64,000 bases of DNA from Sandaracinus amylolyticus (GCF_000737325.1 NZ_CP011125.1:744001-808000), one strand, 5' to 3'. Shown: positions 2,090 through 61,273, numbered from the stretch's first letter. The notes: a model not told the origin generated them from the sequence alone. Program-made: numbers and translations.

Positions 2090-2390
2090 CTCAACCACGG
2101 TCGGTTTTCGACCGTGGTTGGGCGTCCGTGAAGTGGGTCGAGAACCTCAACCACGGTCGAGTTTCGACCGCGGTTAGGGGTCCGTGTAGTGGGTCGAGAA
2201 CCTCAACCACGGTCGGTTTTCGACCGTGGTTGGGCGTCCGTGAAGTGGGCTAGAAAGCTCAACCACGGTCGGGTTCCGACTTCGATTGGTGGCCCGTGAA
2301 GACGGTCGAGAACCTCAACCACGGTCGGTTCTCGACCTCGGTCGGGAGCCCCGTACACGACCAAAACCTCAACCACGGTCGGCCCGCTGT
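2090..2390 (+). repeat. Tandem repeat array A: six 56-bp units, each with the CTCAACCACGGTCGG core
   Basis: Cores start at 2090, 2146, 2202, 2258, 2314 and 2368, so the spacing is 56, 56, 56, 56 and 54 bp. Five cores are exact and 2146 has one mismatch. In units 1 and 3 the core continues into its own inverted copy: CAACCACGGTCG at 2092-2103 and CGACCGTGGTTG at 2109-2120 enclose GTTTT, a perfect 12-bp hairpin. The opposite arm is progressively degraded in the other units. Inter-core sequence is also repeated (GGGCGTCCGTGAAGTGGG). The array fills the gap between two plus-strand genes; no convincing gene lies in 2040-2496. Confidence 0.95.
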
Positions 2391-2496
2391 CCTCCCCACC
2401 GGACACTCCGGGCCGCTCCCGTCCAGCCCACCGAACACCTCGTTCTCGCTCCGTCGCAGATCCGCGTTGGCGCAGGATCTGCTGCCGCGCCCCGTC

Positions 2497-2901
2497 ATGC
2501 TGCTGCCGGCGACCGAGTTCTTCGTGTGTGATCCCACGGGCTCCCCGGAGTACGGCTCGCTGCCGACCCTCGATCCAGAAGCCCAGCGCCGCCTCGCCAA
2601 CGCGTACGCCGCAGGCGTCGACGCCATCTGGCTCGACGGTCGACGCGCGATGCTCCGCAACCTCTCGGGCCCGAGCCGCCGCTTCCTCGTCGTGCTCGTC
2701 CACGCGCGCGGCGGCAGCCTCAGCCAACGCCAGCGCGAGGTCGCCGAGTGCGCCGCCGCCGGCGCGACCGTCGAAGAGATCGCGCGTCACCTCGGCATCT
2801 CGCAGAACACCGTTCGGCACCACCTCAAGGCCGTGTACCGCGCGCTCGAAGTCGGCAGCCGCCTCGAGCTCTCGCGCGCGCTCGGTCACCTCGCGGCCTG
2901 A
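2497..2901 (+). CDS. Small LuxR-type helix-turn-helix protein
   Basis: 134 residues from the ATG at 2497; frames extending further upstream would read through the repeat array and are unlikely. The C-terminal half is a clear GerE/LuxR DNA-binding domain: LSQRQREVAECAAAGATVEE, then IARHLGISQNTVRHHLKAVY with the recognition helix. The N-terminal 65 residues match no signature I recognise and might be a minimal sensor fold. There is no receiver or autoinducer domain. No clear Shine-Dalgarno precedes the ATG; an in-frame TTG at 2467 is an alternative. It lies 54 bp before the enhancer-binding-protein gene and may belong to the same regulatory unit. Confidence 0.75.
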   Translation: MLLPATEFFVCDPTGSPEYGSLPTLDPEAQRRLANAYAAGVDAIWLDGRRAMLRNLSGPSRRFLVVLVHARGGSLSQRQREVAECAAAGATVEEIARHLGISQNTVRHHLKAVYRALEVGSRLELSRALGHLAA

Positions 2902-2955
2902 GATTTCACGTTCAGTTCGCGTCCTGCCCTGGATACACTGCCTCGCTGGAGGCAG

Positions 2956-4449
2956 ATGGGCGCTCGATCCGACGACGAGACCGTCCGACGCGAACGCGAC
3001 GTCTTCCTGCGCGTCCTCGAGCTCGGCGGCGAGCGCGATCCACGCCTCTTCCTCGACCAAGCGCTCGAGCTCTTCCTCGAGCTGACCGGCGCACAGCTCG
3101 GCTACCTCGCGCTCTCGTCGAGCGCGATCGACGCGCCCGAGTTCGAGACGTCGCGCGGGATCGACACCCAGGCGACCAGCGACGTCCGCCGCTCGGTCTC
3201 ACAGGGCATCATCGCCGCCGCGCTCTCGCAGGGCGAGACCATCCAGACGCTCTCCGCGATCGCCGATGGGCGCTTCAGCGATCGCCCGAGCGTGAAGCGC
3301 AGTCAGATCGGCGCGGTCCTCTGCGCGCCGATCGGCTCGCTCGGCGTCGTCTACGTCCAAGAGACGCGCGGCGGTCGCCCCTTCCCGCCCGATGTCGAGC
3401 AATACGCCGCGCTCGTCGCGCGCTTGCTCGCGCCCGCCGCGCGCAGCGTGCTCGCGGAGCGCGCCGCGGTCGTCACCAGCGATCCCACGCGCCCCTATCG
3501 CGAGCGCCTCCGCCTCGACGACATCGTCGGCCGAAGCGCTGCGCTCGCGAACGTGTTCCGCCACGTCGGGCTGGTCGCACCGCTCGACATCGATCTCCTG
3601 ATCACGGGCCCTTCGGGCACCGGAAAGTCGCAGCTCGCGCGCGCGATCATCGCGAACAGCCGCCGCGCCGCGGGCCCGTTCATCGAGGTCAACTGCGCGG
3701 CCGTGCCCGAAGCGCTCTTCGAGAGCGAGCTCTTCGGCGCACGACGAGGCGCGCACTCCACCGCGTTCCACGACACCGAAGGTCGCGTCGCCGCCGCCGA
3801 AGGAGGCACGCTCTTCCTCGACGAGATCGCGGAGCTCTCGCTCGCGAGCCAAGCGAAGCTCCTCACGCTCCTCCAAGCGCGCACGTACCAGCCGCTCGGC
3901 GCGCCCGCGCCGCGTCGCGCCGACATCCGCGTGATCGCCGCGACGAACTCCGATCTCGCGCACGCCGTCGAAGAGCGTCGGTTCCGCGAGGACCTCTTCT
4001 ATCGACTCTCCGTCATGCCGGTCGACGTCCCTGCGCTCTCCGCACGCAGCGACGACATCGCGCCGCTCGCGAGCCATTTCTGCGAGCGCGCCGCGGAGCG
4101 ACACGGCCTCGGGCGCATCGCCATGACGCGCGACGCGCTCAGCGCGTGCGAGGCCCACGACTGGCCCGGCAACGTGCGGCAGCTCGCGCACGCGATCGAG
4201 GCCGGCGTCATCCGCGCCGCGGGCAGTGGGCGCCAGTCGGTGCACGCGTCGGACGTGTTCCCCTCGTCGCGCGACTCCGCCGTCGCCGAGACACTCGGTG
4301 AAGCGACTCGCGCATTCCAGGCGCGCTACATCCGCGACGTGCTCACGAGCGTCGATTGGAACGTGTCCGAGGCCGCGCGCCGTCTCGACATCGCGCGCTC
4401 GCACCTCTACACGCTGATCCGGACTCACGACATCCGCCGGGAGCGATGA
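2956..4449 (+). CDS. GAF-AAA+-Fis regulator resembling a sigma-54 activator but without GAFTGA
   Basis: 497 residues starting at ATG 2956 behind GGAGG. Order: GAF-like domain (about 20-165), AAA+ domain (about 190-410) with Walker A GPSGTGKS, Walker B GGTLFLDEI and arginine-finger region FREDLFYRLSV, then a Fis-type HTH (NVSEAARRLDIARSHLYTLI). The loop that contacts sigma-54, normally GAFTGA, reads GAHSTA here after ELFGARR. EBP relatives lacking GAFTGA (TyrR, HupR) regulate sigma-70 promoters, so sigma-54 dependence is doubtful. The stop codon overlaps the ATG of the kinase-ATPase gene, and the two proteins are probably co-translated and may act in one signalling pathway. Architecture is certain; promoter type is inferred. 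Confidence 0.88.
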   Translation: MGARSDDETVRRERDVFLRVLELGGERDPRLFLDQALELFLELTGAQLGYLALSSSAIDAPEFETSRGIDTQATSDVRRSVSQGIIAAALSQGETIQTLSAIADGRFSDRPSVKRSQIGAVLCAPIGSLGVVYVQETRGGRPFPPDVEQYAALVARLLAPAARSVLAERAAVVTSDPTRPYRERLRLDDIVGRSAALANVFRHVGLVAPLDIDLLITGPSGTGKSQLARAIIANSRRAAGPFIEVNCAAVPEALFESELFGARRGAHSTAFHDTEGRVAAAEGGTLFLDEIAELSLASQAKLLTLLQARTYQPLGAPAPRRADIRVIAATNSDLAHAVEERRFREDLFYRLSVMPVDVPALSARSDDIAPLASHFCERAAERHGLGRIAMTRDALSACEAHDWPGNVRQLAHAIEAGVIRAAGSGRQSVHASDVFPSSRDSAVAETLGEATRAFQARYIRDVLTSVDWNVSEAARRLDIARSHLYTLIRTHDIRRER

Positions 4450-7400
4450 TGTCGATCGACGATCTCGCGGCCTCGCTGCCGCCACGATTCCGATCTCCGA
4501 CGCTCGTCGGCGCGGGCACCCACGGCGCGGTGTTCCATGCGATCGACGATCAGCACGCGCTGCCGGTCGCCATCAAGTGCCTCGCTGCGCCGGACCCCGA
4601 AGATCTACCGGCGTTCAAGCGCGAATTCCGCGCGCTCGTGCACGTCAGCGATCCGCACCTCGTGCAGCTCTACGAACTCCACGGCGAGGGCGCGCAGGTC
4701 TTCTTCACGATGGAGTACGTCGAAGGAGGCACGCTCGCCGAGCGCAGTGCGCAGGACCGACGCGCGGTGTTCCGCCAGATCGCGAATGGCCTCCGAACTC
4801 TGCACGACGCCGGACTGACACACTGCGATCTCAAACCCTCGAACGTGCTGATCGCGCGCGACGGACGCGCGATGTTGACCGACTACGGCTGTGTCTCGCA
4901 CTACGGTGCGCCCGAGAGCGGCGCAGCGGGACTGGGCTCTCCGCACTACATGGCGCCGGAGCAGTGGTTCGAGTCGAGCACCGCGCCTGCGGTCGACTGG
5001 TACGCGCTGGGCGTGATGCTCTTCGAGGCGCTCACCGGGGCGCTCCCGTTCGACGGCGACATGGGCAGCGTGCTGCTCGCGAAGCGCCGCGCGTCGCCGG
5101 ACGCGCTGCGCGCGCGTCTGCGCGACACCGACGACGACGCGCTCGCGTCGCTCTGCGTCGCGCTCCTCTCGAGCGATCCCGATGCGCGCCCCGGCGCCGA
5201 TGCAGTGCTCGCCGCGCTCGATGCCGCACCGTCGCGCGCCCGTGCGTCGAGCGCACCGATCGCGAACGCACCGATCGGCCGCGAAGGCCCGCTCGCCGCG
5301 CTGCGCGCGTGGCTGGAGACGCCGGCACCGGGAGTCGCCGCGCTGATCGGCCCGGGCGGCATCGGCAAGAGCTCGGTGCTGAGCGCGTTCGTGCGCGAGC
5401 TCGGCGCGCACGCGCGCGTGCTGCGCGGTCGGTGTTATCCCGCGGATCGATCCCCGCTCCGCGGCCTCGACGAGATCGCGTCGGCGCTCGGCGAAGGGCT
5501 GCGCGACCGTGACGTGCCCGCGCTCGACGCGCAGGAAGCGACCGCGCTCGCGCGCGCGTTCCCGTCGCTCGCGGAGCCCCACGGCATCGAGGCCTCGGGC
5601 GCGATCACGATGACCGAGGACGCTTCGCGACGCGCGCTCGCGAGCGCGCTGACGCGCTGGATCGTCGCGCTCGCTGGCGATCGCCCCGCGCTCCTCGTCG
5701 TCGACGATCTGCAGTGGGCCGACGAGACGAGCGTCGAGGTGCTCGAGCTCCTGTCGCGGGGCACCACGCCGATCGCGGTGCTGATCGCGTCGCGCAGCGC
5801 CGACCTCGCCGGGCTCGCGCCGCGCCTGTCGCTGGAGCTCGGTCCGCTCGATCGGTCCGAGAGCGCCCGCCTCGTGGCGCAGCTCGCGCCCGAGCTCGGC
5901 GATCGCGCCGAGCGCATCGCGACCCTCGCCGGGGGCAATCCCTTCCTCGTCGAAGCGCTCGCGTCCTACGCGCTGCGCGGCGGCGCGCTCGAGGCGCACG
6001 CCGATCCGCTGCACGACGTCATCGCCGAGTGGGATCCCGACGCATTCGCGAAGCGCCTCGTCACGGTGCTCGCGCTCGCCGACGCACCGCTGCGCTCGAG
6101 CGTGGCCGTCGCGGCGAGCGGCGGTCGTGATCGCGACTATCTGCCCGCGCTCACGCGCCTGCGCGCGCGACGACTGCTCACGTCGCGCCTCGTGCGCGGC
6201 GACGATCTGGTCGAGCTCTATCACCGCCGCTGGGCCGAGGCGGTGCAGGCATCGCTCGACGACGAGGATCGTCGCGCGACCCACCGCGCGCTCGCAGACG
6301 CGATCGCGACGCACACGCCGGGAGACATCGGCCGCGCCGCGGATCACTCGCGATCGGCGGGCGATCTCGCGCTCGCGCTGTCGCGCGATCTGGCGGCCGC
6401 GGACCTCGCGCACGAGCGCGGCTTGCCGCACCTCGAAGCGATGCGGCTGCAGCTCGCGCACGACTCGGCCGTCGCCGACGAGCAGGTGCGGGCGCACGTG
6501 CGCATGCGGCTCGGCGACGCGCTCGCGCAGGTCGGTCGCGGCGCCGAGGCGGCGAAGTGGTATCGCCTCGCCGCGGAGCACGCGCGCTCGCTCGAAGAGA
6601 GCGTGCTCGCGGAGCGCCTCGCGGCCGAGCAGCTCCTCTTCAGCGGCCATCACGAAGAAGGAATCGCGGTGCTGCGGCGCGTGCTCGAGCGCATCGAGCT
6701 CGATCTCCCGACCTCACCGCCCGCTGCGATCGCGCGCGTGCAGTCGTGGTACTCGCATGCCGCGAACCACTACATCGTCGCGCCGGACGAGAGCGCGCCG
6801 ATCACCGCGAGCGGCGACGATCTCGCGCGCATCGACGCGCTCCACGCCGCCACGCTCGGGCTCTCGATGTCGGACCCGCTCGCGACCGGCGTCGCACAGA
6901 CCTTCCACGTCGATCTCGCGCGCGCCGCCGGCGAGCCGTTCCGGCTCCTGCGCGCGGTGACGATCCACCTCGTGCAGACCGCGGGGACGATGGTCGATCT
7001 CGCGCGCACCGCGACCCTGACGGCGACCGCGCGCACGCTGACCGAGCGCGTGGGCACCGCCGAGGCGCGCGCGGTCTTCGCCGTCGCCGAGGCCGGCGCG
7101 GCGTGGATGGAGGCGCGGCTAGACGACGCGCTCGCCGCGTCGGAGCGCGCTCGCAGCGAGCTCGCGTCGATCCGTGGCCTCCAGTGGCAAGCGGACACCG
7201 CGGTGATCGTGCAGCTCGAGGCGCTCTGCGCGCGCGGCGACATCGCGGAGGCGAGCGCGCTCCTCGACGCGGCGATGCGTGATGCCGAGTCGCGCGATGA
7301 TCGATATCTGCGCGCGCACCTCGGCGTGCGGATCGCGCCGTGGGTGCGGCTGTGGCGTGGTGCGCCCGACGAGGCGCGCGCCGAGGCGGACGCGGGAATC

Positions 7401-7769
7401 GCGGCCTTCCGCGTCACGGGTTTCCAGCTCCTGCACCTGATGCACGCGGTGCATCTCGCGCGCTGCGATGTCTACGAGGGCGGCGCGAACGCGGCGCTCG
7501 CGCGGCTCGACGACGCGTGGGCGACGATGGGCCGCTACGGCATGCACGGCATCCAGCACTACGTCGGTGTGCTCGCCGACGTCGCGGTGGTCGCCGCGGA
7601 GCACGTCGCGCCGGATCGAGTCGAGGAGTGGCGCGCGCGGTGTGGGCTCGTCGGCGACGCGTCGTGGTCGCGCAGGGTGACCGACGTCCCGCGCCCGCGA
7701 GCGTTGGAGTCGCTCGCCGAGCGCGGGTGGGCGGACCCCGAGCGTGCCATTCGACTCTGGCGCTCCTGA
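4446..7769 (+). CDS. Ser/Thr protein kinase fused to AAA ATPase and helical repeats (PknK-like)
   Basis: 1107 residues. The N-terminal kinase domain (about 18-280) has the ATP lysine in VAIKCL, catalytic loop HCDLKPSN and DYG in place of DFG; the Arg of the usual HRD is Cys, so it is a non-RD kinase. After GREGPLAALRAWL comes an NTPase with Walker A GPGGIGKS (about 300-307) and Walker B LLVVDDLQWAD (about 418). The rest, to about residue 1100, is Ala/Leu-rich helical repeat of TPR type. This kinase-ATPase-repeat order is common in myxobacteria and resembles PknK. It overlaps the upstream EBP gene by four bases (ATGA). The kinase may control that regulator; this is inference from coupling. Confidence 0.88.
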   Translation: MMSIDDLAASLPPRFRSPTLVGAGTHGAVFHAIDDQHALPVAIKCLAAPDPEDLPAFKREFRALVHVSDPHLVQLYELHGEGAQVFFTMEYVEGGTLAERSAQDRRAVFRQIANGLRTLHDAGLTHCDLKPSNVLIARDGRAMLTDYGCVSHYGAPESGAAGLGSPHYMAPEQWFESSTAPAVDWYALGVMLFEALTGALPFDGDMGSVLLAKRRASPDALRARLRDTDDDALASLCVALLSSDPDARPGADAVLAALDAAPSRARASSAPIANAPIGREGPLAALRAWLETPAPGVAALIGPGGIGKSSVLSAFVRELGAHARVLRGRCYPADRSPLRGLDEIASALGEGLRDRDVPALDAQEATALARAFPSLAEPHGIEASGAITMTEDASRRALASALTRWIVALAGDRPALLVVDDLQWADETSVEVLELLSRGTTPIAVLIASRSADLAGLAPRLSLELGPLDRSESARLVAQLAPELGDRAERIATLAGGNPFLVEALASYALRGGALEAHADPLHDVIAEWDPDAFAKRLVTVLALADAPLRSSVAVAASGGRDRDYLPALTRLRARRLLTSRLVRGDDLVELYHRRWAEAVQASLDDEDRRATHRALADAIATHTPGDIGRAADHSRSAGDLALALSRDLAAADLAHERGLPHLEAMRLQLAHDSAVADEQVRAHVRMRLGDALAQVGRGAEAAKWYRLAAEHARSLEESVLAERLAAEQLLFSGHHEEGIAVLRRVLERIELDLPTSPPAAIARVQSWYSHAANHYIVAPDESAPITASGDDLARIDALHAATLGLSMSDPLATGVAQTFHVDLARAAGEPFRLLRAVTIHLVQTAGTMVDLARTATLTATARTLTERVGTAEARAVFAVAEAGAAWMEARLDDALAASERARSELASIRGLQWQADTAVIVQLEALCARGDIAEASALLDAAMRDAESRDDRYLRAHLGVRIAPWVRLWRGAPDEARAEADAGIAAFRVTGFQLLHLMHAVHLARCDVYEGGANAALARLDDAWATMGRYGMHGIQHYVGVLADVAVVAAEHVAPDRVEEWRARCGLVGDASWSRRVTDVPRPRALESLAERGWADPERAIRLWRS

Positions 7770-7778
7770 GAGCGCCAG
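7757..7778. terminator. Hairpin across the stop codon between convergent genes
   Basis: CTGGCGCTC (7757-7765) and GAGCGCCAG (7770-7778) form a perfect 9-bp stem with a 4-nt CTGA loop. The kinase stop codon TGA lies in the loop region and the carotenoid oxygenase stop follows six bases later on the other strand. It has no U tract, so it is a candidate bidirectional terminator or mRNA 3'-end stabiliser, not a classical intrinsic terminator. Confidence 0.6.
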
Positions 7779-7783
7779 TCGCG

Positions 7784-9853: not shown

Positions 9854-10107
9854 GGCAGGCTCCTCTCGAATACGGCATCACTATCCGATTCTTCTCCCTG
9901 TGAATAGAATCACCCTTCTGGGTGAGGAGCTCGTCGCGTACCTCCGCGCACCTCTCACTCGCGCTCACGACGGAATTGGCTCGGCCGTCCAGCGCTCGAG
10001 CGCGCGGCTGAGCGCTCCGAGTCGAGCCCGATGCCGCGGTGATCGTTGGTACTCTCCCGCGCCGATGAACGACGCCGACGGCATCGCGCGCGGGGCCCAC
10101 CGCTGAG

Positions 10108-11277
10108 ATGCGCGCGCGATCACTCGTCATCGTGATCGCGCTCCTGCTCGTCGCGACGATCGCGAGCGCGCAGGAGACGGGCGGCAGCTTCGGCGGCGGC
10201 GACTGGGGCGATCACGGCTCGCACGGCGGCGGCTCGTACGGTGGCGGCTCGTACGAAGGCGGCTCGTACGAACGCGGACGCGCGCCCAGCGGCGGTGGGC
10301 CAGGGACGCTCGAGTGGATGGAGCGCGAGCGCGAGCGTCGCGAGCGCGAAGAGCGCGAGCGTCGTGAGCGCGAGCGAGAGACGTTCGAGCCGCGCTCGGA
10401 CGACGTGCCGCGATCGAGCGGAGGTCGTCGCACCAGCATCTCGTCGCGCAGCTGCTTCTTGTGCTTCGCGCCGTTGCTCGTCGGCGGGCTGATCCTCTGG
10501 GTGCTCGTGCAGTCGCGTCGCCACACCCGCGCGCTGCGCGACGACGAGACGACGTTCGCGGGATCGGGGCCGATCCCGCGCGCGCAATCGCCGCTCTGGA
10601 ACGGCGTCGATCTCACGCAGCTGCGCCTCGTGATCGACTGGCGCGCGCGACGCTTCGTGCAGAGCGAGCTCGCGCGGATGGCGACGAGCGGTCGCACCGC
10701 GACGAAGGAGGGCCGCGCCGAGCTGCTCCACGCGACGGTGAGGCTCCTGCGCAGCGCGGAGCTCGCGTGGCTCTACGCGGGCGAGATGAGCTTCCGACCG
10801 ATGTCGCCGCCTCAAGCACAGGGCGTGTTCATGCGCCTCGCGCAGAGCGCGCGCGCGAAGTTCACGACGGAGGTGGTGCGCGCGGAGGGCGCGACGGTGC
10901 GCACCGCCGAGCCCGGCGCGCTCCGCGCGAAGGAGCACGAAGGGCAGGGCGTCGTGCTGATCACGCTGATCGTCGCCGCGCGCCGCGAGATCCACGATGT
11001 CCGGCCGCACGACGCGGCCGACGTCGAGCGGCTGCTCGAGTCGCTCGAGCGCATCGGCGCGAGCGAGCTCGTCGCGTTCGAGGTGGTGTGGACCCCGGCG
11101 GCCGAGGACGATCGCATGAGCACCGCGGAGCTCGAGTCGATCCATCCCGACGTCGTGCGCATCGGCGGGATCGGCGGGCGCGTCTTCTGCGGGCACTGCG
11201 GCGGACCGTACGCGATCGAGATCGCGCGCTGTCCTCACTGCGGCGCGCCCAACGACGCGATGGTCAAGTCGACTTGA
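10108..11277 (+). CDS. DUF1517-type membrane protein with Gly-rich linker and C-terminal zinc ribbon
   Basis: 389 residues. A signal peptide (residues 1-21, ending ASAQE) is followed by a Gly/Ser/Tyr-rich stretch (about 25-60), a highly charged Arg/Glu run (about 70-95), one transmembrane helix (about 115-135) and a cytosol-facing domain with DUF1517 character (TVRLLRSAELAWLYAGEMSF). The C terminus carries CGHCGG and CPHCGAP, two CX2C knuckles of a zinc ribbon. DUF1517 proteins have no settled function. The final residues MVKST are encoded in a perfect palindrome shared with the convergent neighbour. A 13-codon frame (10065-10106) just upstream could be a leader peptide, but nothing else supports it. 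Confidence 0.8.
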   Translation: MRARSLVIVIALLLVATIASAQETGGSFGGGDWGDHGSHGGGSYGGGSYEGGSYERGRAPSGGGPGTLEWMERERERREREERERRERERETFEPRSDDVPRSSGGRRTSISSRSCFLCFAPLLVGGLILWVLVQSRRHTRALRDDETTFAGSGPIPRAQSPLWNGVDLTQLRLVIDWRARRFVQSELARMATSGRTATKEGRAELLHATVRLLRSAELAWLYAGEMSFRPMSPPQAQGVFMRLAQSARAKFTTEVVRAEGATVRTAEPGALRAKEHEGQGVVLITLIVAARREIHDVRPHDAADVERLLESLERIGASELVAFEVVWTPAAEDDRMSTAELESIHPDVVRIGGIGGRVFCGHCGGPYAIEIARCPHCGAPNDAMVKST

Positions 11278-11280
11278 CCA
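11261..11280. terminator. Perfect 20-bp palindrome at the junction of two convergent genes
   Basis: TGGTCAAGTCGACTTGACCA reads identically on both strands. It spans the stop codon of the DUF1517 gene (11275-11277) and ends next to the stop of the DUF3105 gene (11281-11283). As RNA it gives an 8-bp stem with a TCGA loop in either direction. Position suggests a bidirectional terminator or 3'-end element; a protein-binding site is also possible. Confidence 0.55.
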
Positions 11281-11901: not shown

Positions 11902-11933
11902 GCCGCGAGGCTGACACGTCGCACGCCGGCGTG

Positions 11934-12881: not shown

Positions 12882-12924
12882 CGAGCGAGAGCGTGCCCGA
12901 CCCGGCATGTCGCGGGAGGCATGG

Positions 12925-13833: not shown

Positions 13834-13906
13834 GGTCGCGGCTGCGGGGTGCGAGGGGTGTGCCGGAGGGTCGGGGGGCGCGGGGGGCGAAAAATGCGGG
13901 GAAAAC

Positions 13907-14074
13907 CTCAACCACGGTCGGTTCGAGGGTGGCGGGCGCCTGGCGGCCGCCTGGCGGGCGTCAGGCGCGGTGTCGCTCGGGGCTCAACCACGGTCGGCTC
14001 GAGGCGCGACCCCGCCACACGGCGAGATTCGCGAATTCCGGCCGAAGACGCGCGAAAAACTCAACCACGGTCGG
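13907..14074 (+). repeat. Core-repeat cluster B: three exact CTCAACCACGGTCGG copies
   Basis: Cores at 13907-13921, 13983-13997 and 14060-14074, spaced 76 and 77 bp. Two of the three follow an A-rich stretch (AAAAC). Between the first two lies a palindrome-rich segment (13936-13968) with GCGCCTG and CAGGCGC arms and the motif CCTGGCGGCCGCC that recurs upstream of the transposase gene. The cluster occupies the 258-bp gap between the convergent LysR gene and a membrane-protein gene. Confidence 0.93.
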
Positions 14075-21109: not shown

Positions 21110-21488
21110 CTCAACCACGGTTGTTTGTCGAGCACCGCGGGTGCTGCCCAGTGCTCCCGAATAGCGACGTCTCGTCGCGGAGCCGGCGACCTCCAGACCT
21201 CAACCACGGTCGGCGCCGAGCGCGCCTGGACGCGGTCCTCCGTGTCCCCGCTCGCAGACGCTCGAACCTCAACCACGGTCGGTTCCCGGGGCCCCCGAAC
21301 CGGGTCCTCCTAGTCGCCGGTCGCAGACGCTCGAACCTCAACCACGGTCGGTTCCCGGCGTCCCCGAACCGGGTCGTCCTCGTCCCCGGTCGCAGACGCC
21401 TGAACCTCAACCACGGTCGGTTCCCGGCGCCCCCGAACCGGGTCGTCCTCGTCCCCGCTCGCAGACGCTGAAACTCAACCCCGGTCGG
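21110..21488 (+). repeat. Tandem repeat array C: six core units, 69-bp period
   Basis: Cores start at 21110, 21199, 21268, 21337, 21406 and 21474. The last intervals are 69, 69, 69 and 68 bp. Four cores are exact, 21474 has one mismatch and 21110 has two. Each central unit contains CGGTTC, a GC-rich loop and GAACCG (an inverted repeat overlapping the core end), then GGTCGCAGACGCTCGAAC. Spacer sequence is unrelated to array A although the core is identical. It fills the 489-bp gap between convergent genes; no gene is evident there. Confidence 0.95.
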
Positions 21489-38663: not shown

Positions 38664-38801
38664 CCGACCGTGGTTGAGGTTTTCCTCAATGTTTTCGCGG
38701 TACGGACCGAGCTGATGGACAGTGCGGGACCGACCGTGGTTGAGGTTTTCGTCAGTCGTGGCGCGGCACCGCCGCGAAGCCACAGACCGACCGTGGTTGA
38801 C
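38664..38801 (-). repeat. Core-repeat cluster D: three copies, minus orientation
   Basis: CCGACCGTGGTTGAG at 38664-38678 and 38730-38744 (exact), and 38787-38801 with one mismatch at the last base. Intervals are 66 and 57 bp. Read on the minus strand, the first two follow AAAAC, the same A-rich lead-in seen in clusters B and C. The cluster lies in the 275-bp gap between convergent kinase and Cys-rich lipoprotein genes. Confidence 0.9.
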
Positions 38802-43267: not shown

Positions 43268-43473
43268 CCGTCCGTGGTTGAGTTTTGGGGGGGGCGGGTG
43301 GGGCGGGTTTCGGGCTGAAGCGGGCTTGCGCCGGCGCACTTTGCGGCCGACCGTGGTTGAACCGGCGTGGGCCGTTGGGGCCGCGTGTGGCTGAGAATTT
43401 CCGGTGTGCCTGAGCGGGCGGTTTCGGCAGTGCAGCGGTCCCGCCGGACGTCTCAGGACCGACCGTGCTCGAG
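43268..43473 (-). repeat. Core-repeat cluster E: degenerate copies, minus orientation
   Basis: CCGTCCGTGGTTGAG (43268-43282, one mismatch) and CCGACCGTGGTTGAA (43347-43361, one mismatch) are clear; CCGACCGTGCTCGAG (43459-43473) has two mismatches. Cores are about 79 and 112 bp apart. On the minus strand the first follows CAAAA. This is the only cluster between divergently transcribed genes and the only multi-copy one with no exact core, so it looks the most decayed. The 448-bp gap (43139-43586) holds nothing else I can identify. Confidence 0.75.
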
Positions 43474-43586: not shown

Positions 43587-44891
43587 ATGCATCGACGCTT
43601 CCTCGCGCTCGCGGTGGTGGTGTTGTCGCTCGCGCCCAGCGCCGCGCGCGCGCAGCTCCAACTCGTTCCGGAGCCGCCGCCGGAGGCAGCGTGGCCGCGC
43701 TTCGAGTGCGAAGACGGTACGTGTCCGCGAGCGGTCGGCGCGTTGCTCTCGTTCGCCGCGAACGGGCAGGTCGGGTTCTGCACTGCCGCATTGATCGCAC
43801 CGGACCGCATCGTAATCGCGGCGCACTGCGCTCCCGATGGCACGCCGGGACCGACGGCGTCGCTGCACTACTTCCTGCCGGACGAGCACGCGGTGACGCT
43901 CGCGTGGAGCGCCGTGACTGCGGTCGTCCACCGGGAAGACCGCAACGTGGGTGCCGACCACGCCGTGCTCCTGCTGCACCGTGAGATCGACGCGCCGCAT
44001 CTCGCGCTCGCGCGCGTTCCGCCCGCGCCGGAGGGGCGCTTCGACGTCGTGCGCGCGTCGCCGCATTCGGACGGAACCGTGTTCGTGCGTCGCGAGCAAT
44101 GTCTAGTGATGCCGCAGGCGCTCAGCGCGGACCGCATCGTGCCGTCCGCGATCGCGCGCATCGCTGGCTGCACGATCGTGCCGGGGAATTCGGGCTCGCC
44201 AATGCTCGATGATTCCGGACGGGTGGTTGCGGTCGTGAGCACTGGGTTGGCGCCGCCTGGTGTCGCGGTGTTGCTCGCACCGTGGTTGACCGGACCTGCG
44301 CCGTTCGTGGGCACCCTGTCCTCGCTCGCGTGCTTGCCGACCGACGTTGGGCCGGGCGCAGCTCCGGGAGCTTGCGTCGCGTGGAGCCGAACCCCGGACG
44401 GCGGGCTCGTCTCCTCCGCCGAGGCGCGCGACGCCGCGATCGACGTCCAGCGCGAGGCGCTCGCGGAGCGACTCCTCGAGTGGGAGCGCGCGGACGTCGC
44501 ATCGCGGGACCTCGTCGGCTGGGATCTGGACAGCCGAGTACGTGGCGATCGGACGTGGGCGCTTCCCGTTCCTGGGTGCCTCGATGTGGCGGAGCTCGAG
44601 CGCACCGGTCGAATCGACTCGCGCGGTCGGTTCCGTCTGAGCGTTCAGGTGCCGGCGTGGCAGGCGTCCGCGTTCGTGTTCGGGTTCGACCTGCGGATGG
44701 TTCCGATCACCGAGCGCGTCGGGTCGGTGTGGATGGATGTCACTGGCAGGTTCGACGAGGTTCGCGACATCGCGACGATCCGGGTGCGTGTGCGCGGAGC
44801 CCGCGTCTTCCGTCCCCGACGGGATGCGCACGTGCCGGCGTGCCGGGACGCGGAGGAGCCGCCGAGCGCGGTGCCGTCGAACGGCGTGTGA
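43587..44891 (+). CDS. Secreted trypsin-like serine protease
   Basis: 434 residues from ATG 43587 behind GGGAGG. Signal peptide ending APSAARAQ. Trypsin-fold catalytic triad: His in VIAAHCAPDG (about residue 73), Asp in NVGADHAVLLL (about 114), Ser in VPGNSGSPMLDDSG (about 197). A C-terminal region of about 190 residues with two cysteines (PGCLDVAEL and VPACRDAEE) has a beta-rich look and may be a binding domain. Substrate specificity cannot be assigned with confidence. Confidence 0.88.
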   Translation: MHRRFLALAVVVLSLAPSAARAQLQLVPEPPPEAAWPRFECEDGTCPRAVGALLSFAANGQVGFCTAALIAPDRIVIAAHCAPDGTPGPTASLHYFLPDEHAVTLAWSAVTAVVHREDRNVGADHAVLLLHREIDAPHLALARVPPAPEGRFDVVRASPHSDGTVFVRREQCLVMPQALSADRIVPSAIARIAGCTIVPGNSGSPMLDDSGRVVAVVSTGLAPPGVAVLLAPWLTGPAPFVGTLSSLACLPTDVGPGAAPGACVAWSRTPDGGLVSSAEARDAAIDVQREALAERLLEWERADVASRDLVGWDLDSRVRGDRTWALPVPGCLDVAELERTGRIDSRGRFRLSVQVPAWQASAFVFGFDLRMVPITERVGSVWMDVTGRFDEVRDIATIRVRVRGARVFRPRRDAHVPACRDAEEPPSAVPSNGV

Positions 44892-44945
44892 TCGCTTCGG
44901 GATCCGTCGCAAATCGACGACCCACGTTGAGTTGCGCGAGCAACA

Positions 44946-44961
44946 CCTGGCGGCCGCCAGG
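44946..44961. repeat. 16-bp perfect palindrome upstream of the transposase gene
   Basis: CCTGGCGGCCGCCAGG is a perfect palindrome, followed by GCGGCCGCC at 44961-44969. A near copy, CCTGGCGGCCGCCTGG, occurs at 13939-13954 inside core-repeat cluster B. It lies 90 bp before the RAYT-like start. Palindromes in this position could be recognised by the transposase; it may also be a chance GC-rich palindrome. Confidence 0.45.
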
Positions 44962-45050
44962 CGGCCGCCACCAGCTCCGCCATCGATCACGATGGAGCGC
45001 AGCATTTCTCTTCTCCAGCGCCCGGCTCAGTCGTTGCTCAGCGCGGCGGC

Positions 45051-45974
45051 ATGACACAGCCACGCATCGTCCTCCCAGGCGCCACCGTCTTGATCACGCG
45101 CCGCACCCTTCGTCGTCATCATCTCTTTCGCCCCGACGAGCAGATGCGGAGCCTGTTCGTTTACGCGCTCGCAGTGTCCGCGCGCAAACACGGGATCGTC
45201 GTCCACGTCGCGACGCTGATGAGCACGCACGAGCACCTCGTCGTCACCGACGTCGCCGGCGTTCTCCCGGATTTCCTGCGCGATCTGCATCGCTGGGTCG
45301 CGCTCGGGACGAAGGTCCTTCGCCGATGGGAGGGCCCGGTTTGGGATCACGAGCCCTCGTCGATCGTCGTGCTCCGTACGCGTGACGCGGTCGTGCAGAA
45401 GAGCGCCTATGCCATTGCGAATCCGGTGCTCGCCGGACTCGTGCGAGAAGCCCGAGAGTGGCCGGGAGTACAGACGCGACCTCGCGACATCGGACGCGGT
45501 GTGCTGAAGGCGCGTCGTCCGGCGATGTTCTTCGACCCAGAGAACGAGCAATGGCCGGAGTCGGTCGAGCTCGAGCTCAGCCCTTTCCCGAGCATCGCGG
45601 GCGGCTGGAGCGCCGAGGAGATGCGCCGAGCGATCGAGGAAGAGGTCGCGCGCCAAGAGCGCGAAGCGAGGGCCGAAGTCAGATCGCGAGGCGCCGCGTT
45701 CCTCGGTGCGCGTCGCTGTCAGTCGGTCGTGCCGCACAAGCGCGCTCGGAGCCACGAGCCAGTCCGGAAACGGAATCCGACCTTTGCCGTCGGTCGAGGC
45801 AGAGCGGCGGAGCTCCGCGAGGCGGTGCTCGAGCTTCGGGAGTTCCGGCGCGCGTATCACGACGCGATGTCGCGATGGCGTGCTGGCGATCGCGCCGTCA
45901 CGTTCCCGGCGGGGACGTGGTCGATGTCACGGACGCACGGTGTCGTGGTCGGTGCGGTGTCGCGCGCCGCTTGA
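45051..45974 (+). CDS. REP-associated-type (Y1_Tnp/RAYT-like) transposase
   Basis: 307 residues. The N-terminal domain matches Y1/IS200-like transposases found as single genes in Myxococcota: PRIVLPGATVLITRRTLRRH, LMSTHEHLVVTD (HXH metal motif, about residues 57-68), FLRDLHRWVALGTKV, and YAIANPVLAGLVREAREWPG with a candidate catalytic Tyr (about 123). The C-terminal part is charged and partly helical. No second transposase gene and no terminal repeats are seen, so this is a domesticated or single-copy element of RAYT type. A core-repeat copy lies 22 bp after its stop. Confidence 0.82.
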   Translation: MTQPRIVLPGATVLITRRTLRRHHLFRPDEQMRSLFVYALAVSARKHGIVVHVATLMSTHEHLVVTDVAGVLPDFLRDLHRWVALGTKVLRRWEGPVWDHEPSSIVVLRTRDAVVQKSAYAIANPVLAGLVREAREWPGVQTRPRDIGRGVLKARRPAMFFDPENEQWPESVELELSPFPSIAGGWSAEEMRRAIEEEVARQEREARAEVRSRGAAFLGARRCQSVVPHKRARSHEPVRKRNPTFAVGRGRAAELREAVLELREFRRAYHDAMSRWRAGDRAVTFPAGTWSMSRTHGVVVGAVSRAA

Positions 45975-45996
45975 GCAACTCGCGGGCGCTCAGAAC

Positions 45997-46011
45997 CCAC
46001 CGTGGTTGAGC
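45997..46011 (-). repeat. Single core copy F, between transposase and kynA genes
   Basis: CCCACCGTGGTTGAG has one mismatch to the core (minus orientation). It occupies most of the 51-bp gap between the convergent RAYT-like and tryptophan dioxygenase genes, 22 bp after the first stop and 14 bp before the second. Confidence 0.7.
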
Positions 46012-46025: not shown

Positions 46026-47141
46026 TTACTGCCCCACGCCCAACGTATACGCGTCCGGCGTCTCCACCGGCGGCAGCGCCTGCGCTCGGATCAACAGCGT
46101 CCGCACTGCCCAGACGTCGTGGAAGATGCGATACCGCAGCGCGGTCTGGTCCAGATAGTCCACACCGGCCGAGCCGCCGGTGCCCGTCCTCCGTCCGATC
46201 ACGCGCTCGACCATCCGCGCGTGCCGCTGCCGGAAGATCACGAACGCCTGCTCGATCGCGACGATCGCGTCGATCACCTCGCGCGGCCACGCGAGGAGCG
46301 GTAGCTCGCGATAGCTCTCGATGAACATCAACGCGGCGCGCACTCGCGCTCTCCGCGCGCGCTCTTCCTCCGGCGCGTCGACCGCCTCGAGGAATGCGCG
46401 CGCTCCGCCCACCTCTTTTTCATAGCGCGCTCGCAGTCGCTCCGCGTCGTGCGGCGTCAGCGCGTCGTGCATCGCGAGCTCCTGTGCGCGCCTCACCTCG
46501 CCGGCGTGCGCCTCCAGGTACTGCTCGACGAAGCGTTTCACCGTCTCCGCGTCACCCGCGCGGTCCGGAGTGCTCCCCTGGATGGGCGTCCGGAACAGCC
46601 ACTCGTCGAGCGCTTCCCTCAACGTCGGTCGGTCCGCGAGCCGCGCAGAAACGCGGCGAGACGCAGCGGACTCCGACCCATCCGGCGCCCGCAGCGCCTG
46701 CATGTACCCATGCTCGTGCCCGAGCGCGATCCGATCCGAGTCCCGCAGCCCCATCAGGATCTCGATCTCGCGCAGCTGCGCCGACTGGAAGCCGCTCGCG
46801 GGCGAGAGCTTGTCGCGGAACGCGAGATAGTCTCGCGTCGTCATCGTCTCCATGAGCGCGAAGTGCTGCGCGATGTGGTGGAACAAGAGCGCCATCCGAC
46901 GCAGCCCGCGCACCGCGCTCGCCAGCGACTGCTCGGGCACGCGCTCCTGCGCGAACAGTCCTCGCACCGACACCAGCTCGCGCAGCGCGAGCTTCAACCA
47001 GAGCTCGTCGATCTGGTGCACGGTGATGAAGAGCACCTCGTCGTTCGACAGCCCGGCGTCGCTCTCCTCGAGCCCGCCCTGGAGCGAAGTGATCTCCTCG
47101 ACCTTGATGTAGTCCCAGTACGTCGTCGCCTTGCGCGCCAT
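46026..47141 (-). CDS. kynA: Tryptophan 2,3-dioxygenase
   Basis: 371 residues from ATG 47141. Opens the indole ring of L-tryptophan with O2 to N-formylkynurenine, the first step of kynurenine breakdown. Signatures: TVHQIDELWLKLALREL with the distal His (about 41), SGFQSAQLREIE, HEHGYMQALR, and FRQRHARMVERVIGRRTGTG with the proximal heme His, continuing GGSAGVDYL. All are intact. It is longer than many bacterial versions, mainly in the middle. No other kynurenine gene adjoins it. Confidence 0.96.
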   Translation of the reverse strand: MARKATTYWDYIKVEEITSLQGGLEESDAGLSNDEVLFITVHQIDELWLKLALRELVSVRGLFAQERVPEQSLASAVRGLRRMALLFHHIAQHFALMETMTTRDYLAFRDKLSPASGFQSAQLREIEILMGLRDSDRIALGHEHGYMQALRAPDGSESAASRRVSARLADRPTLREALDEWLFRTPIQGSTPDRAGDAETVKRFVEQYLEAHAGEVRRAQELAMHDALTPHDAERLRARYEKEVGGARAFLEAVDAPEEERARRARVRAALMFIESYRELPLLAWPREVIDAIVAIEQAFVIFRQRHARMVERVIGRRTGTGGSAGVDYLDQTALRYRIFHDVWAVRTLLIRAQALPPVETPDAYTLGVGQ

Positions 47142-52958: not shown

Positions 52959-52994
52959 GGGGGGAGGATACGCGGCTGTCGGGAGGGCGGTCAG

Positions 52995-53263
52995 CCGACC
53001 GGGGTTGGGTGGGATGTCCGTGGATGCGGATGGTTGCGAGGGTGGTCCGACCGACCGTGGTTGAGCTCGGTGCCCCTGGACGAGGACGGCCCTGTTCTTG
53101 GTGAGGGCGCGCTCCGGTCAGGTCGGACCACGTGTCTGTATCCGCAAACGAGGGCGAAACCCGACCGTGGTTGAGCTCTCGTACCCGCGGATCAGGACAA
53201 AACCCGACCGTGGTTGAGCTCCAGCACCCTCAAACAAGGACCCCAACCCCGACCGTGGTTGAG
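52995..53263 (-). repeat. Core-repeat cluster G: four exact copies plus one decayed, minus orientation
   Basis: Exact CCGACCGTGGTTGAG at 53051-53065, 53161-53175, 53204-53218 and 53249-53263; CCGACCGGGGTTGGG at 52995-53009 has two mismatches. Intervals between exact copies are 110, 43 and 45 bp. The last three are packed closely with CGGATCAGGACA-like spacers. Both flanking genes run on the minus strand, and the core also reads 5'-3' on the minus strand. No gene is evident in the 352-bp gap 52959-53310. Confidence 0.93.
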
Positions 53264-53310
53264 CCCCGCCGCCCCCAAACAGCAGCAGCCCGCCCCGACC
53301 GCGAACTCCC

Positions 53311-54393: not shown

Positions 54394-54442
54394 ATCGCCT
54401 CTGTGTGCCCACTTGGCAACGCACCGTTCAGTCACGGAACCA

Positions 54443-57144: not shown

Positions 57145-57172
57145 GAGAGCGTCGAGCGTACTCGACGCGCGC

Positions 57173-60100
57173 GTGCTTGACCGCGCTCCGCGCGGCGACC
57201 GACGATGCGAGCGTCGTGACGCCCAGCGTTCCTTCTTCTCCGAGGCTCCCCGCTTGAGGCGCGAAGAAGCGCGCCCGGGCACGGTGCTGGACGATCGGTT
57301 CGTGCTCGAGCAGCTCGCGGGCGCGGGCGGCATGGGCGAGGTCCATCGCGCGCGTGATCGGCGCACCGGTGAGCGCGTCGCGCTGAAGCTGCTCTACTGG
57401 AGCGGCGAAGATCACGAGCGTCGGTTCCTCCGCGAAGGCCATCTCCTCTCGCGGCTCGAGCATCCCGGCATCGTCCGCTACGTCGCGCACGCCACCGCGC
57501 CGACTGCGTATCTCGCGATGGAGTGGCTCGAGGGTGAAGACCTCGGGCGTCGCCTCGCGCGCGCGCCGCTCACGCTGCGTGAGTCGCTCGAGCTCGGCCG
57601 TCGCGTCGCCGAGGCGCTCGATGCCGCGCACCAGAGGGGCGTCGTCCATCGCGACGTGAAGCCGAGCAACGTGTTCCTCGTCGGCGGCGAGGTCGCGCGC
57701 GTGAAGGTGCTCGACTTCGGCATCGCACGTCAGCTCCACGCGGCCACGCGCGCGGTCACGATGACCGGCCAGGTCGTCGGCACGATCGGCTACATGGCGC
57801 CGGAGCAAGCGGGCGAGGGGCGCGACATCGACGCGAGCGCCGACGTGTTCTCGCTCGGGTGCGTGCTCTTCGAGTGCCTCACCGGCCGCGCGCCGTTCGC
57901 GGGCGATCGTCTGATGGAGGTGCTCGCGAAGATCCTGCTCGCCGATCCGCCGCGCATCAGCGACGTGCGCGAGGACGTGCCGCTCGCGCTCGACACGCTC
58001 GTGCACCGCATGATGCAGAAGGAGCCTCGCGATCGCCCCGCGATGCTCGAGATCGCCGCGGCGCTCGACTCCATCGCGTCCGATCCGGAGCTCGGCGACG
58101 AGCTGCGCCCGAGGCTGGTGCGCGGCGCCGACGACGAAGGTCCTGCGGTGAGCGACGACGAGCAGCGGCTCATGTCGGTGGTGCTCGCGGACGAGGATCT
58201 GCGCGCGCGCGCGACGCGACCGACCGTGCTCGCCGATCCCGATCAGGGCGGCACGCGCGAGCTCGCGGCGGCGGCCGATACGCACGGCGGACGCCTCGAC
58301 ATCCTCGCGAACGGCTGCCCGATCGTCGTGCTCGCGGGCAACGGCGTCGCGATCGATCTCGCCGCGCGCGCCGCGCGATGTGCGCTCGCGATGCGACGGA
58401 TCCTGCCGCGCGCGCGCATCGCGATCGCGATGGGCCGCGGGGACGCGTCCGCCGCGGCGAAGCTCGGCGACGTGGTCACGCGCGCCGAGGCATTGCTCGA
58501 GCTCGCGCCCGGTGATGCGCGCGCGATCCGCGTCGATCAGACGACCGCGGGGCTGCTCGACACGCGCTTCGAGCTCGGCGGTGACGCCGACGGTCTCGAG
58601 CTCGTCGCGGAGCGCGTACGCGCCGAGCCTGCGCGCAATCTCCTCGGGAAGCCTGCGCCGTTCGAAGGCCGCGAGCGCGAGATGGCGATGCTCGACGCGG
58701 CGATCGACGAGTGCTTCGGCGAGCCCCTCGCGAGCGCGATCCTCGTCACCGCGCCGGCGGGCGCCGGGAAGTCGCGCCTCGCGCACGAGCTGCTGCGCGC
58801 GATCGCGTCGCGCGGCGAGAACGTCTCGGTGTGGATGGCGCGGGGCGAGCCCATCGCGGCGGGCTCGTCGTTCGGGATGCTGGGGCAGATCGTGCGGCAC
58901 GTCGCGGGGCTCGTGGACGGAGAGCGGCCCGAGGTGTGGCGGCACAAGCTCGTCGCGCGCGTCTCGCGTCACGTGCCGGCGAGCGAGTCGCAGCGCGTCG
59001 CGGAGTTCCTCGGAGAGATGGTCGGCGCGCGCTTCCCCGACGAAGGAAGGCCCGCGCTCCGTGCGGCGCGTGACGACGGTGCGCTCCTCGGCGAGCAGAT
59101 GCTTCGCGCGTGGGAGACGTTCGTCGCCGCGGAGTGCGCGGTGCAGCCCGTCGTCGTCGTGCTCGAGGATCTGCACTGGGGCGATCTGCCGACGGTGCGC
59201 TTCGTCGACGCGACGCTGCGCACGCTGCGCGACCGCCCGTTCCTCGCGCTCGCGCTCGCGCGGCCCGAGATCGCGACGATCTTCCCCGACCTCTGGAGCG
59301 AGCGGCGCATGCAGCACGTGCGTCTCTCCGATCTGACCCCGCGCGCGGCGCGCAAGCTGGTGCGCGAGGTGCTCGGCGATCGCGCCGACGACGCGACGAC
59401 GGCGGCGCTGATCGAGCGCGCGGGCGGCAACGCGTTCTATCTCGAGGAGCTGATCCGCGCGGTCGCCGAAGGGCGCGGCGACGAGCTGCCCGACACCGTG
59501 CTCGCGATGGCGCAGGCGCGCCTCGAGCGCCTCTCGCAAGGCGAGCGTCGCATCCTCCGCGCGGCGAGCGTGTTCGGTCAGGTGTTCTGGGTCGGCGGTG
59601 TCGCGGCGCTGCTCTCGGAGGAGCGACGCGAGGAGCTCGAGGCGACGCTCGACGATCTCGCGCAGCGCGAGCTCGTGACGCGGCATCCGGGATCGCGATT
59701 CCGCGACGAGCGCGAGCTCTCGTTCCGGCACGTGCTGGTGCGCGACGCGGCGTACGGGATGCTGACGCCGCGCGACGCGAAGCTCGCGCATCGGCTCGCG
59801 GGCGCGTGGCTCGAGGCTGCGGGCGAGCGCGATGCGATCGTGCTCGCGCAGCACCTCGAGCGCGGAGGCGAGCCGCAGGGCGCGGTCGTCTGGTACCTGT
59901 GGGCCGCGGAGCAGGCGCTCGAGGGCGACGATCTCGCGTCGGTGATCGCGCGCGCAGAGCGCGGCGTCGAGTGCGGCGCGAGCGGCGCGATGCTCGGTGA
60001 GCTGAGGCTCCTGCAGGCCGAAGCGCTGGGGTGGGGCGCGAAGAGCGAGGACCACTCGCGGCTCGCGGAAGAGGCGCTCTCGCTGTCCCCGCGAGGCAGC

Positions 60101-61141
60101 GGACCGCGCGCGCGTGCGGCAGCGGAGCTCGCGGTCGCGGGATGTCGTCTCGGCGATCACGCGAAGCTCGAGCTCGCCGCGAAGAGCTTGCTCGAGGAGC
60201 TCCCGCGCACGCGCGGGACGACGAGCGCGACGCACGCGCTCGCGGTCGCGCGCACCGTGATCGAGATGCTCGTCGCGGGCCGTGGTGATCTCGCCGAGCC
60301 GATGCTGCACGCGATGGACGGAGCCGACGCCGCGCACGAAGAGGATCGTGCGCTGGTGATCGCGGTGCGCTCGTGGCTCCACGCGGTGAGCGCGTTGTTC
60401 ACCGGAGATCCCGAGCCCTACGTGCGCGAGGGCGAGGGGATCGTGGCGGCGCTCGAGGAATGCGGTCAGCTGCGTTACGCGGTGATCGCGGGTGTCCATC
60501 TCGCGATCGCGCTCGCTGCGATCGGCTGGAGCGATCGCGCGGTGGAGCAGGCACGTCGCATGAGCGATCGGGCGCGCGCGATGGGGCTCCTCGCGTACGC
60601 CGAGCGCGCGCGTGCGCAGCTCGTGTTGCCGCTGGCGCGGCGAGGAGAGGTCGCCGAGGCGGAGTCGATCGCGCGGGCGTGCCTCGCACAGGCGAGGGTC
60701 TCGGGCGACCCGGTGACCGAGGCGCGGGCGCGCGCGAGCGGTGCGGCGATCCTGCTGATGCGCGGTGACGTCGAGGGTGCGGCGCGCGAGGCGGAGAGCG
60801 TGGTCGCGGGGGAGCGGTTCCCGCCGGGGATCCGCGCCGAGGCGTGCGTGACGCTGGCGCGTGCGCGGCTGGCGGGGGGGGATGCGGAGGGTGCGCTCGG
60901 GGTCGTCGAGCGAGGGCTGGCGCTCGCGGGGGCGGGGTCGGTCGCGGGCGACGTCGCGCTGCGGTTGGCGCGCGCGGACGCGCTCGGCGCGGCGGGTCGG
61001 CGCGACGAAGCGCAGCGGGTGATCGCGGAGGCAGCGGCGCGGGTGCGCTCGCGGGCGAGCGCGATGAGGGACGAGCGGGTGCGGGAGTCGTTCCTCGGGA
61101 TCGCGGAGCACGCGGAGGTGGTCGGGCGGCTGGCGCGGTGA
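57173..61141 (+). CDS. Ser/Thr kinase fused to degenerate nucleotide cyclase, AAA ATPase and TPR-like repeats
   Basis: 1322 residues from GTG 57173; TTG 57254 is a possible start with GAGG upstream. Kinase domain about 40-300: AGAGGMGEVH, VALKLL, HRDVKPSN, DFG. From about 330 to 480 is a stretch resembling a class III nucleotide cyclase (LDILANGCPIVVLAG, RARIAIAMGRGDAS), but the metal-binding Asp pair is not convincing. The ATPase follows (TAPAGAGKSRL Walker A, about 525; VVVVLEDLHWGD Walker B). Residues 850-1322 are helical repeats. This is the kinase-cyclase-ATPase order seen in TOMM-associated and PknK-like regulators. Divergent from the cytochrome gene. Confidence 0.85.
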   Translation: MLDRAPRGDRRCERRDAQRSFFSEAPRLRREEARPGTVLDDRFVLEQLAGAGGMGEVHRARDRRTGERVALKLLYWSGEDHERRFLREGHLLSRLEHPGIVRYVAHATAPTAYLAMEWLEGEDLGRRLARAPLTLRESLELGRRVAEALDAAHQRGVVHRDVKPSNVFLVGGEVARVKVLDFGIARQLHAATRAVTMTGQVVGTIGYMAPEQAGEGRDIDASADVFSLGCVLFECLTGRAPFAGDRLMEVLAKILLADPPRISDVREDVPLALDTLVHRMMQKEPRDRPAMLEIAAALDSIASDPELGDELRPRLVRGADDEGPAVSDDEQRLMSVVLADEDLRARATRPTVLADPDQGGTRELAAAADTHGGRLDILANGCPIVVLAGNGVAIDLAARAARCALAMRRILPRARIAIAMGRGDASAAAKLGDVVTRAEALLELAPGDARAIRVDQTTAGLLDTRFELGGDADGLELVAERVRAEPARNLLGKPAPFEGREREMAMLDAAIDECFGEPLASAILVTAPAGAGKSRLAHELLRAIASRGENVSVWMARGEPIAAGSSFGMLGQIVRHVAGLVDGERPEVWRHKLVARVSRHVPASESQRVAEFLGEMVGARFPDEGRPALRAARDDGALLGEQMLRAWETFVAAECAVQPVVVVLEDLHWGDLPTVRFVDATLRTLRDRPFLALALARPEIATIFPDLWSERRMQHVRLSDLTPRAARKLVREVLGDRADDATTAALIERAGGNAFYLEELIRAVAEGRGDELPDTVLAMAQARLERLSQGERRILRAASVFGQVFWVGGVAALLSEERREELEATLDDLAQRELVTRHPGSRFRDERELSFRHVLVRDAAYGMLTPRDAKLAHRLAGAWLEAAGERDAIVLAQHLERGGEPQGAVVWYLWAAEQALEGDDLASVIARAERGVECGASGAMLGELRLLQAEALGWGAKSEDHSRLAEEALSLSPRGSGPRARAAAELAVAGCRLGDHAKLELAAKSLLEELPRTRGTTSATHALAVARTVIEMLVAGRGDLAEPMLHAMDGADAAHEEDRALVIAVRSWLHAVSALFTGDPEPYVREGEGIVAALEECGQLRYAVIAGVHLAIALAAIGWSDRAVEQARRMSDRARAMGLLAYAERARAQLVLPLARRGEVAEAESIARACLAQARVSGDPVTEARARASGAAILLMRGDVEGAAREAESVVAGERFPPGIRAEACVTLARARLAGGDAEGALGVVERGLALAGAGSVAGDVALRLARADALGAAGRRDEAQRVIAEAAARVRSRASAMRDERVRESFLGIAEHAEVVGRLAR

Positions 61142-61184
61142 GGGGTGTCCTGGAGCGGGGGTGTCCTCGGTTTGGGCTAAGAAA

Positions 61185-61273
61185 CTCAACCACGGTCGGT
61201 TTTTGGGGCAGCGTGCCTGCACCAATCCCGTCCCGCGAAAACCCACCACGACGAAAGCTCAACCACGGACGGC
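61185..61273 (+). repeat. Core-repeat cluster H: two copies, plus orientation
   Basis: CTCAACCACGGTCGG at 61185-61199 (exact, after GAAA) and CTCAACCACGGACGG at 61259-61273 (one mismatch, after AAAG), 74 bp apart. Both lie in the 198-bp gap between the kinase and FIST genes, which are on the plus strand, and the core has the same orientation as the genes. Confidence 0.88.

Follow-up and report, generated by a model that had tools for sequence, protein, structure and literature searches.

What accounts for a 15-bp sequence that recurs in cluster after cluster between the genes of one part of a bacterial chromosome? The question is raised by a 64,000-bp stretch of Sandaracinus amylolyticus DNA, here called the window (positions 744001 to 808000 of the complete 10,327,335-bp chromosome; genome G000). 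An earlier note on the window, made from the sequence alone, had drawn attention to the 15-mer CTCAACCACGGTCGG and suggested that it might be an element like a repetitive extragenic palindrome (REP), a terminator, or a site for a chromosome-organizing protein. That note had overlooked a gene at 45051 to 45974 of the window that encodes a REP-associated tyrosine transposase (RAYT), referred to below as RAYT1. The repeat clusters are very probably associated with this RAYT as its cognate repeat.

A recount of the window confirmed the 19 exact and 7 one-mismatch copies of the core that had been reported at eight places and raised the number of two-mismatch copies from three to seven. When up to three mismatches were allowed, 40 matches were observed versus 3.4 expected, and none of 100 shuffles reached 40. 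The whole 10.33-Mb genome holds 31 exact copies, 30 of them at 610 to 1008 kb and one at 8.42 Mb, so the earlier extrapolation to more than a thousand clusters was wrong. The earlier note had itself named rarity of the core elsewhere in the genome as evidence against its proposal; that rarity removes the genome-wide claim and leaves the existence of the element intact. A genome-wide chromosome organizer, an idea that had leaned on the assumed density, is rejected on the same count. What needs explaining is therefore a region-restricted repeat. In a second genome of the genus, used for comparison (G002), the repeat is likewise confined, mainly to 6.77 to 7.06 Mb and 9.76 to 10.17 Mb. A k-mer scan of the region also returned a recurrent GGGCGCCATGTAC word, which resembles the coding sequence of protein kinases and was dropped.

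The consensus in the two Sandaracinus-genus genomes is (A/G)AA-n-CTCAACCACGGTCGG-TTY. It is approximately CAAC-CYG-GGTCGG-GT in Sorangium and, in its general form across the Polyangiales, CTCAAC-NNN-GGTCGG, with a central triplet that varies by lineage (CTG and CCG in Sorangium, CCC in genome G067, CAC in Sandaracinus). Pyrimidines, often T, follow the core on its 3' side, and most core variants contain the short dyad ACC-NN-GGT. GTAG/CTAC (3 of 152 near flanks versus 1 of 152 far flanks) and GTGG/CCAC (19 versus 17 in the same samples) are not enriched near the core, no CGTC tag lies beside it, and GGGGWSAS is not part of its consensus. A bulged hairpin pairing RAA with TTY was considered and rejected for lack of covariation. 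In the literature searched, we found no report of the exact core sequence, and searches for REPIN/RAYT systems in myxobacteria and for REPs in Sorangium returned nothing.

The RAYT1 locus and the core copies around it are as follows.

44337 to 44351, minus strand: degenerate core copy CCCAACGTCGGTCGG, 5' of RAYT1 and conserved in G002.
44917 to 44931, minus strand: core copy CTCAACGTGGGTCGT, 119 bp 5' of RAYT1 and antisense to it.
45051 to 45974, plus strand: RAYT1, a divergent REP-associated tyrosine transposase of 307 amino acids with the HxH motif of a HUH metal site (H60/H62), the catalytic-tyrosine motif Y120-A-I-A-N-P, and a C-terminal extension of about 150 amino acids.
45996 to 46010, minus strand: core copy CTCAACCACGGTGGG of the 46.0-kb cluster, 21 bp past the RAYT1 stop codon and in the same place in G002.

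The protein encoded at 45051 to 45974, inside the repeat-bearing zone at 610 to 1008 kb of the chromosome, is a RAYT that diverges from the family norm and is extended at its C terminus. It matches the NCBIfam model NF047646 (REP_Tyr_transpos; E = 1e-10, 41.6 bits), which also matches all 36 aligned relatives, and residues H60, H62, Y120, N124, and P125 are invariant in the 36-sequence alignment and align with those of 4er8. An AlphaFold2 model of RAYT1 (pLDDT 81, pTM 0.84) has as its top Foldseek match 4er8_A, a TnpA_REP bound to a REP hairpin (E = 3.3e-4); VIA-align gave Z = 11.3 over 158 residues for this pair, and the next matches, IS608-type enzymes, reached Z values of at most 7.9. The Pfam model Y1_Tnp matches nothing in either genome of the genus, and 7 of the 36 relatives match it weakly. 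It misses the RAYT1 clade, so Pfam-based annotation will miss these genes. The S. amylolyticus genome holds six RAYT genes, of which the other five are 52 to 57% identical to RAYT1 and one, at 1.52 Mb, has an internal stop. RAYT2 to RAYT6 (GTG-type) form a clade separate from RAYT1 in a tree for which remote outgroup rows were not used, as their branches were implausibly long and their reading frames probably wrong.

The association between the repeat and RAYT genes extends well beyond this locus. Nine RAYT genes were read in the two genomes of the genus, and in the 5' flank of each of them lies CTCAACGTGGGTCGG or a near variant of it in antisense orientation. Arrays of CTCAAC-NNN-GGTCGG flank close relatives of RAYT1 in other genera of the Polyangiales. 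Flanks were counted at 35 RAYT loci in named organisms (Sorangium, Minicystis, and uncultured Myxococcota). Within 700 bp upstream of the RAYT, antisense copies outnumbered sense copies 175 to 4, and within 700 bp downstream, sense copies outnumbered antisense copies 132 to 17. Motif density was ∼14-fold higher near the RAYT (307 per 46.5 kb) than farther out (260 per 544 kb). Among 183 Polyangiales genomes, the 10 with at least 10 exact copies of CTCAACNNNGGTCGG all fall within the 20 that encode a close RAYT (E value of 1e-80 or better); the Fisher P value of 2e-11 overstates independence, as 6 of the 10 rich genomes belong to the Sorangium genus group and 2 to this genus. In this sample of 183 genomes, a RAYT is necessary for motif richness and not sufficient. 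Because mirrored arrays flank the genes and all 10 motif-rich genomes carry a RAYT, we conclude that the repeat family is the cognate element of the RAYT family.

In both genomes of the genus, a G+C-rich, hairpin-like GGCGG...CCGCC stretch was seen beside the antisense CTCAACGTGGGTCGG in RAYT 5' flanks (for example, at window positions 44940 to 44975). A similar GGCGGCCGCC run lies in a spacer of array 2, near 13940 to 13960.

Arrays that lie away from RAYT genes also tend to be near them. Arrays more than 2.5 kb from any RAYT were scored for a RAYT within 50 kb, and the RAYT map was rotated to obtain the expectation. Such arrays numbered 10 of 16 in S. amylolyticus, 9 of 16 in G002, and 7 of 19, 4 of 12, and 5 of 18 in three Sorangium genomes, versus 0.7 to 1.5 expected (P = 0.0007 to 0.023 across all five genomes, which amount to about two independent cases because of shared ancestry within the Sandaracinus pair and the Sorangium trio). 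In Marinomonas, where REPs are also concentrated near tnpA_REP, the pattern was attributed to their having arrived recently (PMC8266576). That does not account for the proximity seen here, because RAYT1 and the arrays are common to two species and are older than their split. The idea that each RAYT has a motif territory of its own was rejected: the 400-kb zones around RAYT3, RAYT4, and RAYT5 contain no arrays, and these genes, which fall outside the RAYT1 clade, have single 5' copies only, a sign of specificity.

At nine orthologous junctions, an array is present in each of the two species. The core columns there are ∼98% identical (87% at one), a figure that counts recognizable cores only and is biased upward; spacers are 47 to 79% identical with many gaps, and the flanking sequence, mostly genes, is 87 to 95% identical apart from one short stretch. 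Since the recognizable cores stay fixed while the spacers drift, the core appears to be maintained. The arrays of the window, apart from the copies at RAYT1 given above, are listed here.

2090 to 2382, plus strand: array 1, five exact copies, one with one mismatch and one with two mismatches, in direct repeat with a mostly 56-bp period.
13907 to 14074, plus strand: array 2, three exact copies spaced by 76 and 77 bp, with unrelated spacers.
21110 to 21488, plus strand: array 3, four exact and two degenerate copies with a mostly 69-bp period.
38664 to 38801, minus strand: array 4, two exact copies and one with one mismatch.
43268 to 43473, minus strand: array 5, two copies with one mismatch and one with two mismatches; the only array of the window between called divergent genes.
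52995 to 53263, minus strand: array 7, four exact copies and one with two mismatches.
61185 to 61272, plus strand: array 8, one exact copy and one with one mismatch, 73 bp apart; the same junction in G002 has a 72-bp spacing.

The copies of a cluster generally share one orientation, as the earlier note had stated; the exceptions are two degenerate inverted copies in array 1 (at 2108 and 2220, each with two mismatches), which can form a strong hairpin with their neighbors, the only such arrangement in the window. The claim that all copies are intergenic also stands for most of them, the exceptions being three at 2314 to 2382 in a doubtful called open reading frame and one at 46618 to 46632. The latter, CTCAACGTCGGTCGG, is a perfect copy of the general motif, situated 646 bp beyond RAYT1 and within a tryptophan 2,3-dioxygenase gene; it is also found in G002 and may reflect chance or coding constraint.

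Several observations weigh against a RAYT origin of the clusters. The two copies nearest to RAYT1 are both on the minus strand and are not mirrored, and the score of RAYT1 lies below the NCBIfam curated cutoff of 80 bits, with no Pfam match, Y1_Tnp included. Ten genomes encode a close RAYT and have no dispersed arrays. No core was seen to move, no empty site came to light, and the evidence for core maintenance carries the upward bias already described. Finally, in Sorangium cellulosum So0157-2 a RAYT unit of 1092 bp has been copied while the arrays around it have not. The two RAYTs concerned (L261 at ∼150.8 kb and L262 at ∼461.6 kb) share exactly 1092 bp at 99.6% identity, corresponding to positions 9875 to 10966 in both loci; the shared stretch begins 126 bp ahead of the start codon and ends 69 bp beyond the coding match, and the flanking arrays of the two differ. 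This event is either a recent movement of the RAYT unit between array-bearing sites or gene conversion. Under either reading, gene and arrays are separable. We read the low family score as divergence within the RAYT family, because fold, motifs, and flanking repeats agree.

It could be argued that the core is a site for a host protein, either a regulator or a chromosome-organizing protein, and that the RAYT inserted beside such sites or borrowed them. Near-identical cores at orthologous junctions with drifting spacers are what a functional binding site would produce, most variants have the ACC-NN-GGT dyad at their center, and the repeat zones lie 1.1 to 1.8 Mb to either side of the origin (dnaA) in both genomes of the genus. 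However, inversions around the origin would also produce this symmetry and make it equally expected, every motif-rich genome carries a RAYT, and a host site can hardly explain a motif that is mirrored at both ends of the RAYT with lineage-specific triplets (in Sorangium, G014, and others). We therefore regard a host site as improbable. Ordinary tandem-duplication debris, that is, minisatellites with no link to the RAYT, is more improbable still. Neighboring spacers are partly alike (up to 82 to 93%) in the arrays at 610, 746, and 765 kb of the chromosome, as such debris would be, and the genome contains a second class of intergenic satellites with 41- to 43-bp periods and unrelated sequences (at ∼578.7, 1166.7, 3893.0, 4503.9, and 7843.5 kb). 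In most other arrays, however, neighboring spacers show approximately random identity around fixed cores, and the same core recurs at more than a dozen junctions. The linkage to RAYT genes, which holds across genera, already disfavors this explanation.

The placement of the arrays relative to genes, as called with a simple caller of our own, bears on whether they are transcription terminators or mRNA 3'-end elements. The sense-strand position of the core reported at the three tandem junctions of the window was borne out, and when both genomes of the genus are taken together, it holds for all six of the multi-copy arrays that lie at such junctions (P = 0.016). The other multi-copy arrays lie at six convergent junctions and one divergent junction, so that most are at gene 3' ends, and both the pyrimidines after the core and the hairpin of array 1 would suit a terminator. 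Sense orientation fails as a general rule in Sorangium (4 sense versus 5 antisense), and array orientation is therefore not read as proof of an RNA-level role. In addition, location at 3' ends is also the usual REP pattern (PMC3733652), and region-restricted placement is unsuited to a general terminator. An intrinsic terminator consists of a G+C-rich hairpin followed by a T run; single cores form no stable hairpin (mean of -2.3 kcal/mol for the DNA), and no covariation is seen between their flanks. The terminator idea thus found little support beyond one array, and we give it very little credence.

Returning to the RAYT as the source of the clusters, we somewhat favor mobilization of the repeats by RAYT proteins. 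RAYTs are HUH/Y1 single-strand DNA nucleases, and the clusters would be dispersed, nonautonomous copies of the cognate repeat of RAYT1. RAYT1 would recognize the core, probably as single-stranded DNA, and its nicking, copying, or strand transfer would seed arrays in the intergenic DNA of its surroundings, for the most part at the 3' ends of genes, where an insertion would be harmless; tandem duplication might then expand them. The upkeep of cores amid drifting spacers would imply either continuing RAYT-dependent maintenance or use of the arrays by the host. TnpA_REP enzymes nick and rejoin single-stranded DNA beside their REPs (PMC8266576), and by analogy RAYT1 may act on the core and nearby single-stranded DNA to copy or multiply the core. 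A bolder possibility, which we put forward tentatively, is that the long-RAYT clade works on nonpalindromic, iteron-like direct-repeat arrays rather than on REP hairpins and that the repeat is read by the C-terminal extension. Arrays would then be seeded and maintained only in the neighborhood of the gene, so that an active RAYT would hold a territory as large as a few hundred kilobases, and this territory would persist through speciation.

By architecture, the system is near RAYT/REP, and it fits the looser description of TIRtrons. In TIRtrons/TIRYTs (Di Nocera et al. 2013, PMC3733652), a RAYT-like gene is flanked by non-GTAG inverted repeats, and some of these terminal inverted repeats (TIRs) also occur dispersed, as dimers or clusters, in families of moderate abundance, and some share a GGGGWSAS motif. 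A RAYT-like gene, non-GTAG inverted flanking repeats, and dispersed copies were all found here across the family. In contrast to TIRtrons, which have one long TIR on each side, the flanks here usually hold arrays in which a 15-bp core is present several times. The consensus is new, and the dispersed copies form direct tandem arrays; the text of the TIRtron paper does not mention myxobacteria (PMC3733652). The system resembles the REP/BIME (bacterial interspersed mosaic element) REPtrons (Nunvar et al. 2010, PMC2817692; Corneloup et al. 2021, PMC8266576) in its short extragenic repeats, often 3' of genes, which flank the RAYT in inverted orientation with lineage-specific variants. It differs from them in lacking both a GTAG/GTGG head and a stable palindrome, in having direct arrays where theirs alternate, and in numbering tens to fewer than 200 exact copies. 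The suggestion of a REP-like element thus pointed to the right neighborhood, the motif being tied to a RAYT across the order, and extragenic location agrees with GTAG-type REPs. We do not file the repeat as a REP, because the tag, the palindrome of 20 to 40 nucleotides, and high-copy genome-wide dispersal are absent. RAYT1 can be likened, by features only, to TnpA_Y1 subclasses 2.1/2.3 (Quentin et al. 2018, PMC6006769), with which it shares the Y---NP class-2 signature and a long C-terminal extension and, for subclass 2.3, several low-identity paralogues per genome. According to that study, no flanking repeats could be identified for the long-C-terminus subclasses (PMC6006769), whereas RAYT1 has a clear flanking repeat, though one with no hairpin.

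RAYTs count as domesticated transposases to which no job in the cell has yet been assigned. Since the long-C-terminus subclasses had been described as lacking flanking repeats, a cognate repeat is a useful addition: the long-RAYT family of the Polyangiales gains a concrete one, with matched pairs in several genera. The central triplet offers a natural specificity series for testing recognition. Strict upkeep of the core, drifting spacers, and confinement near the gene together allow one to ask how a RAYT spreads its repeats and keeps them up, and whether they are put to use by the host.
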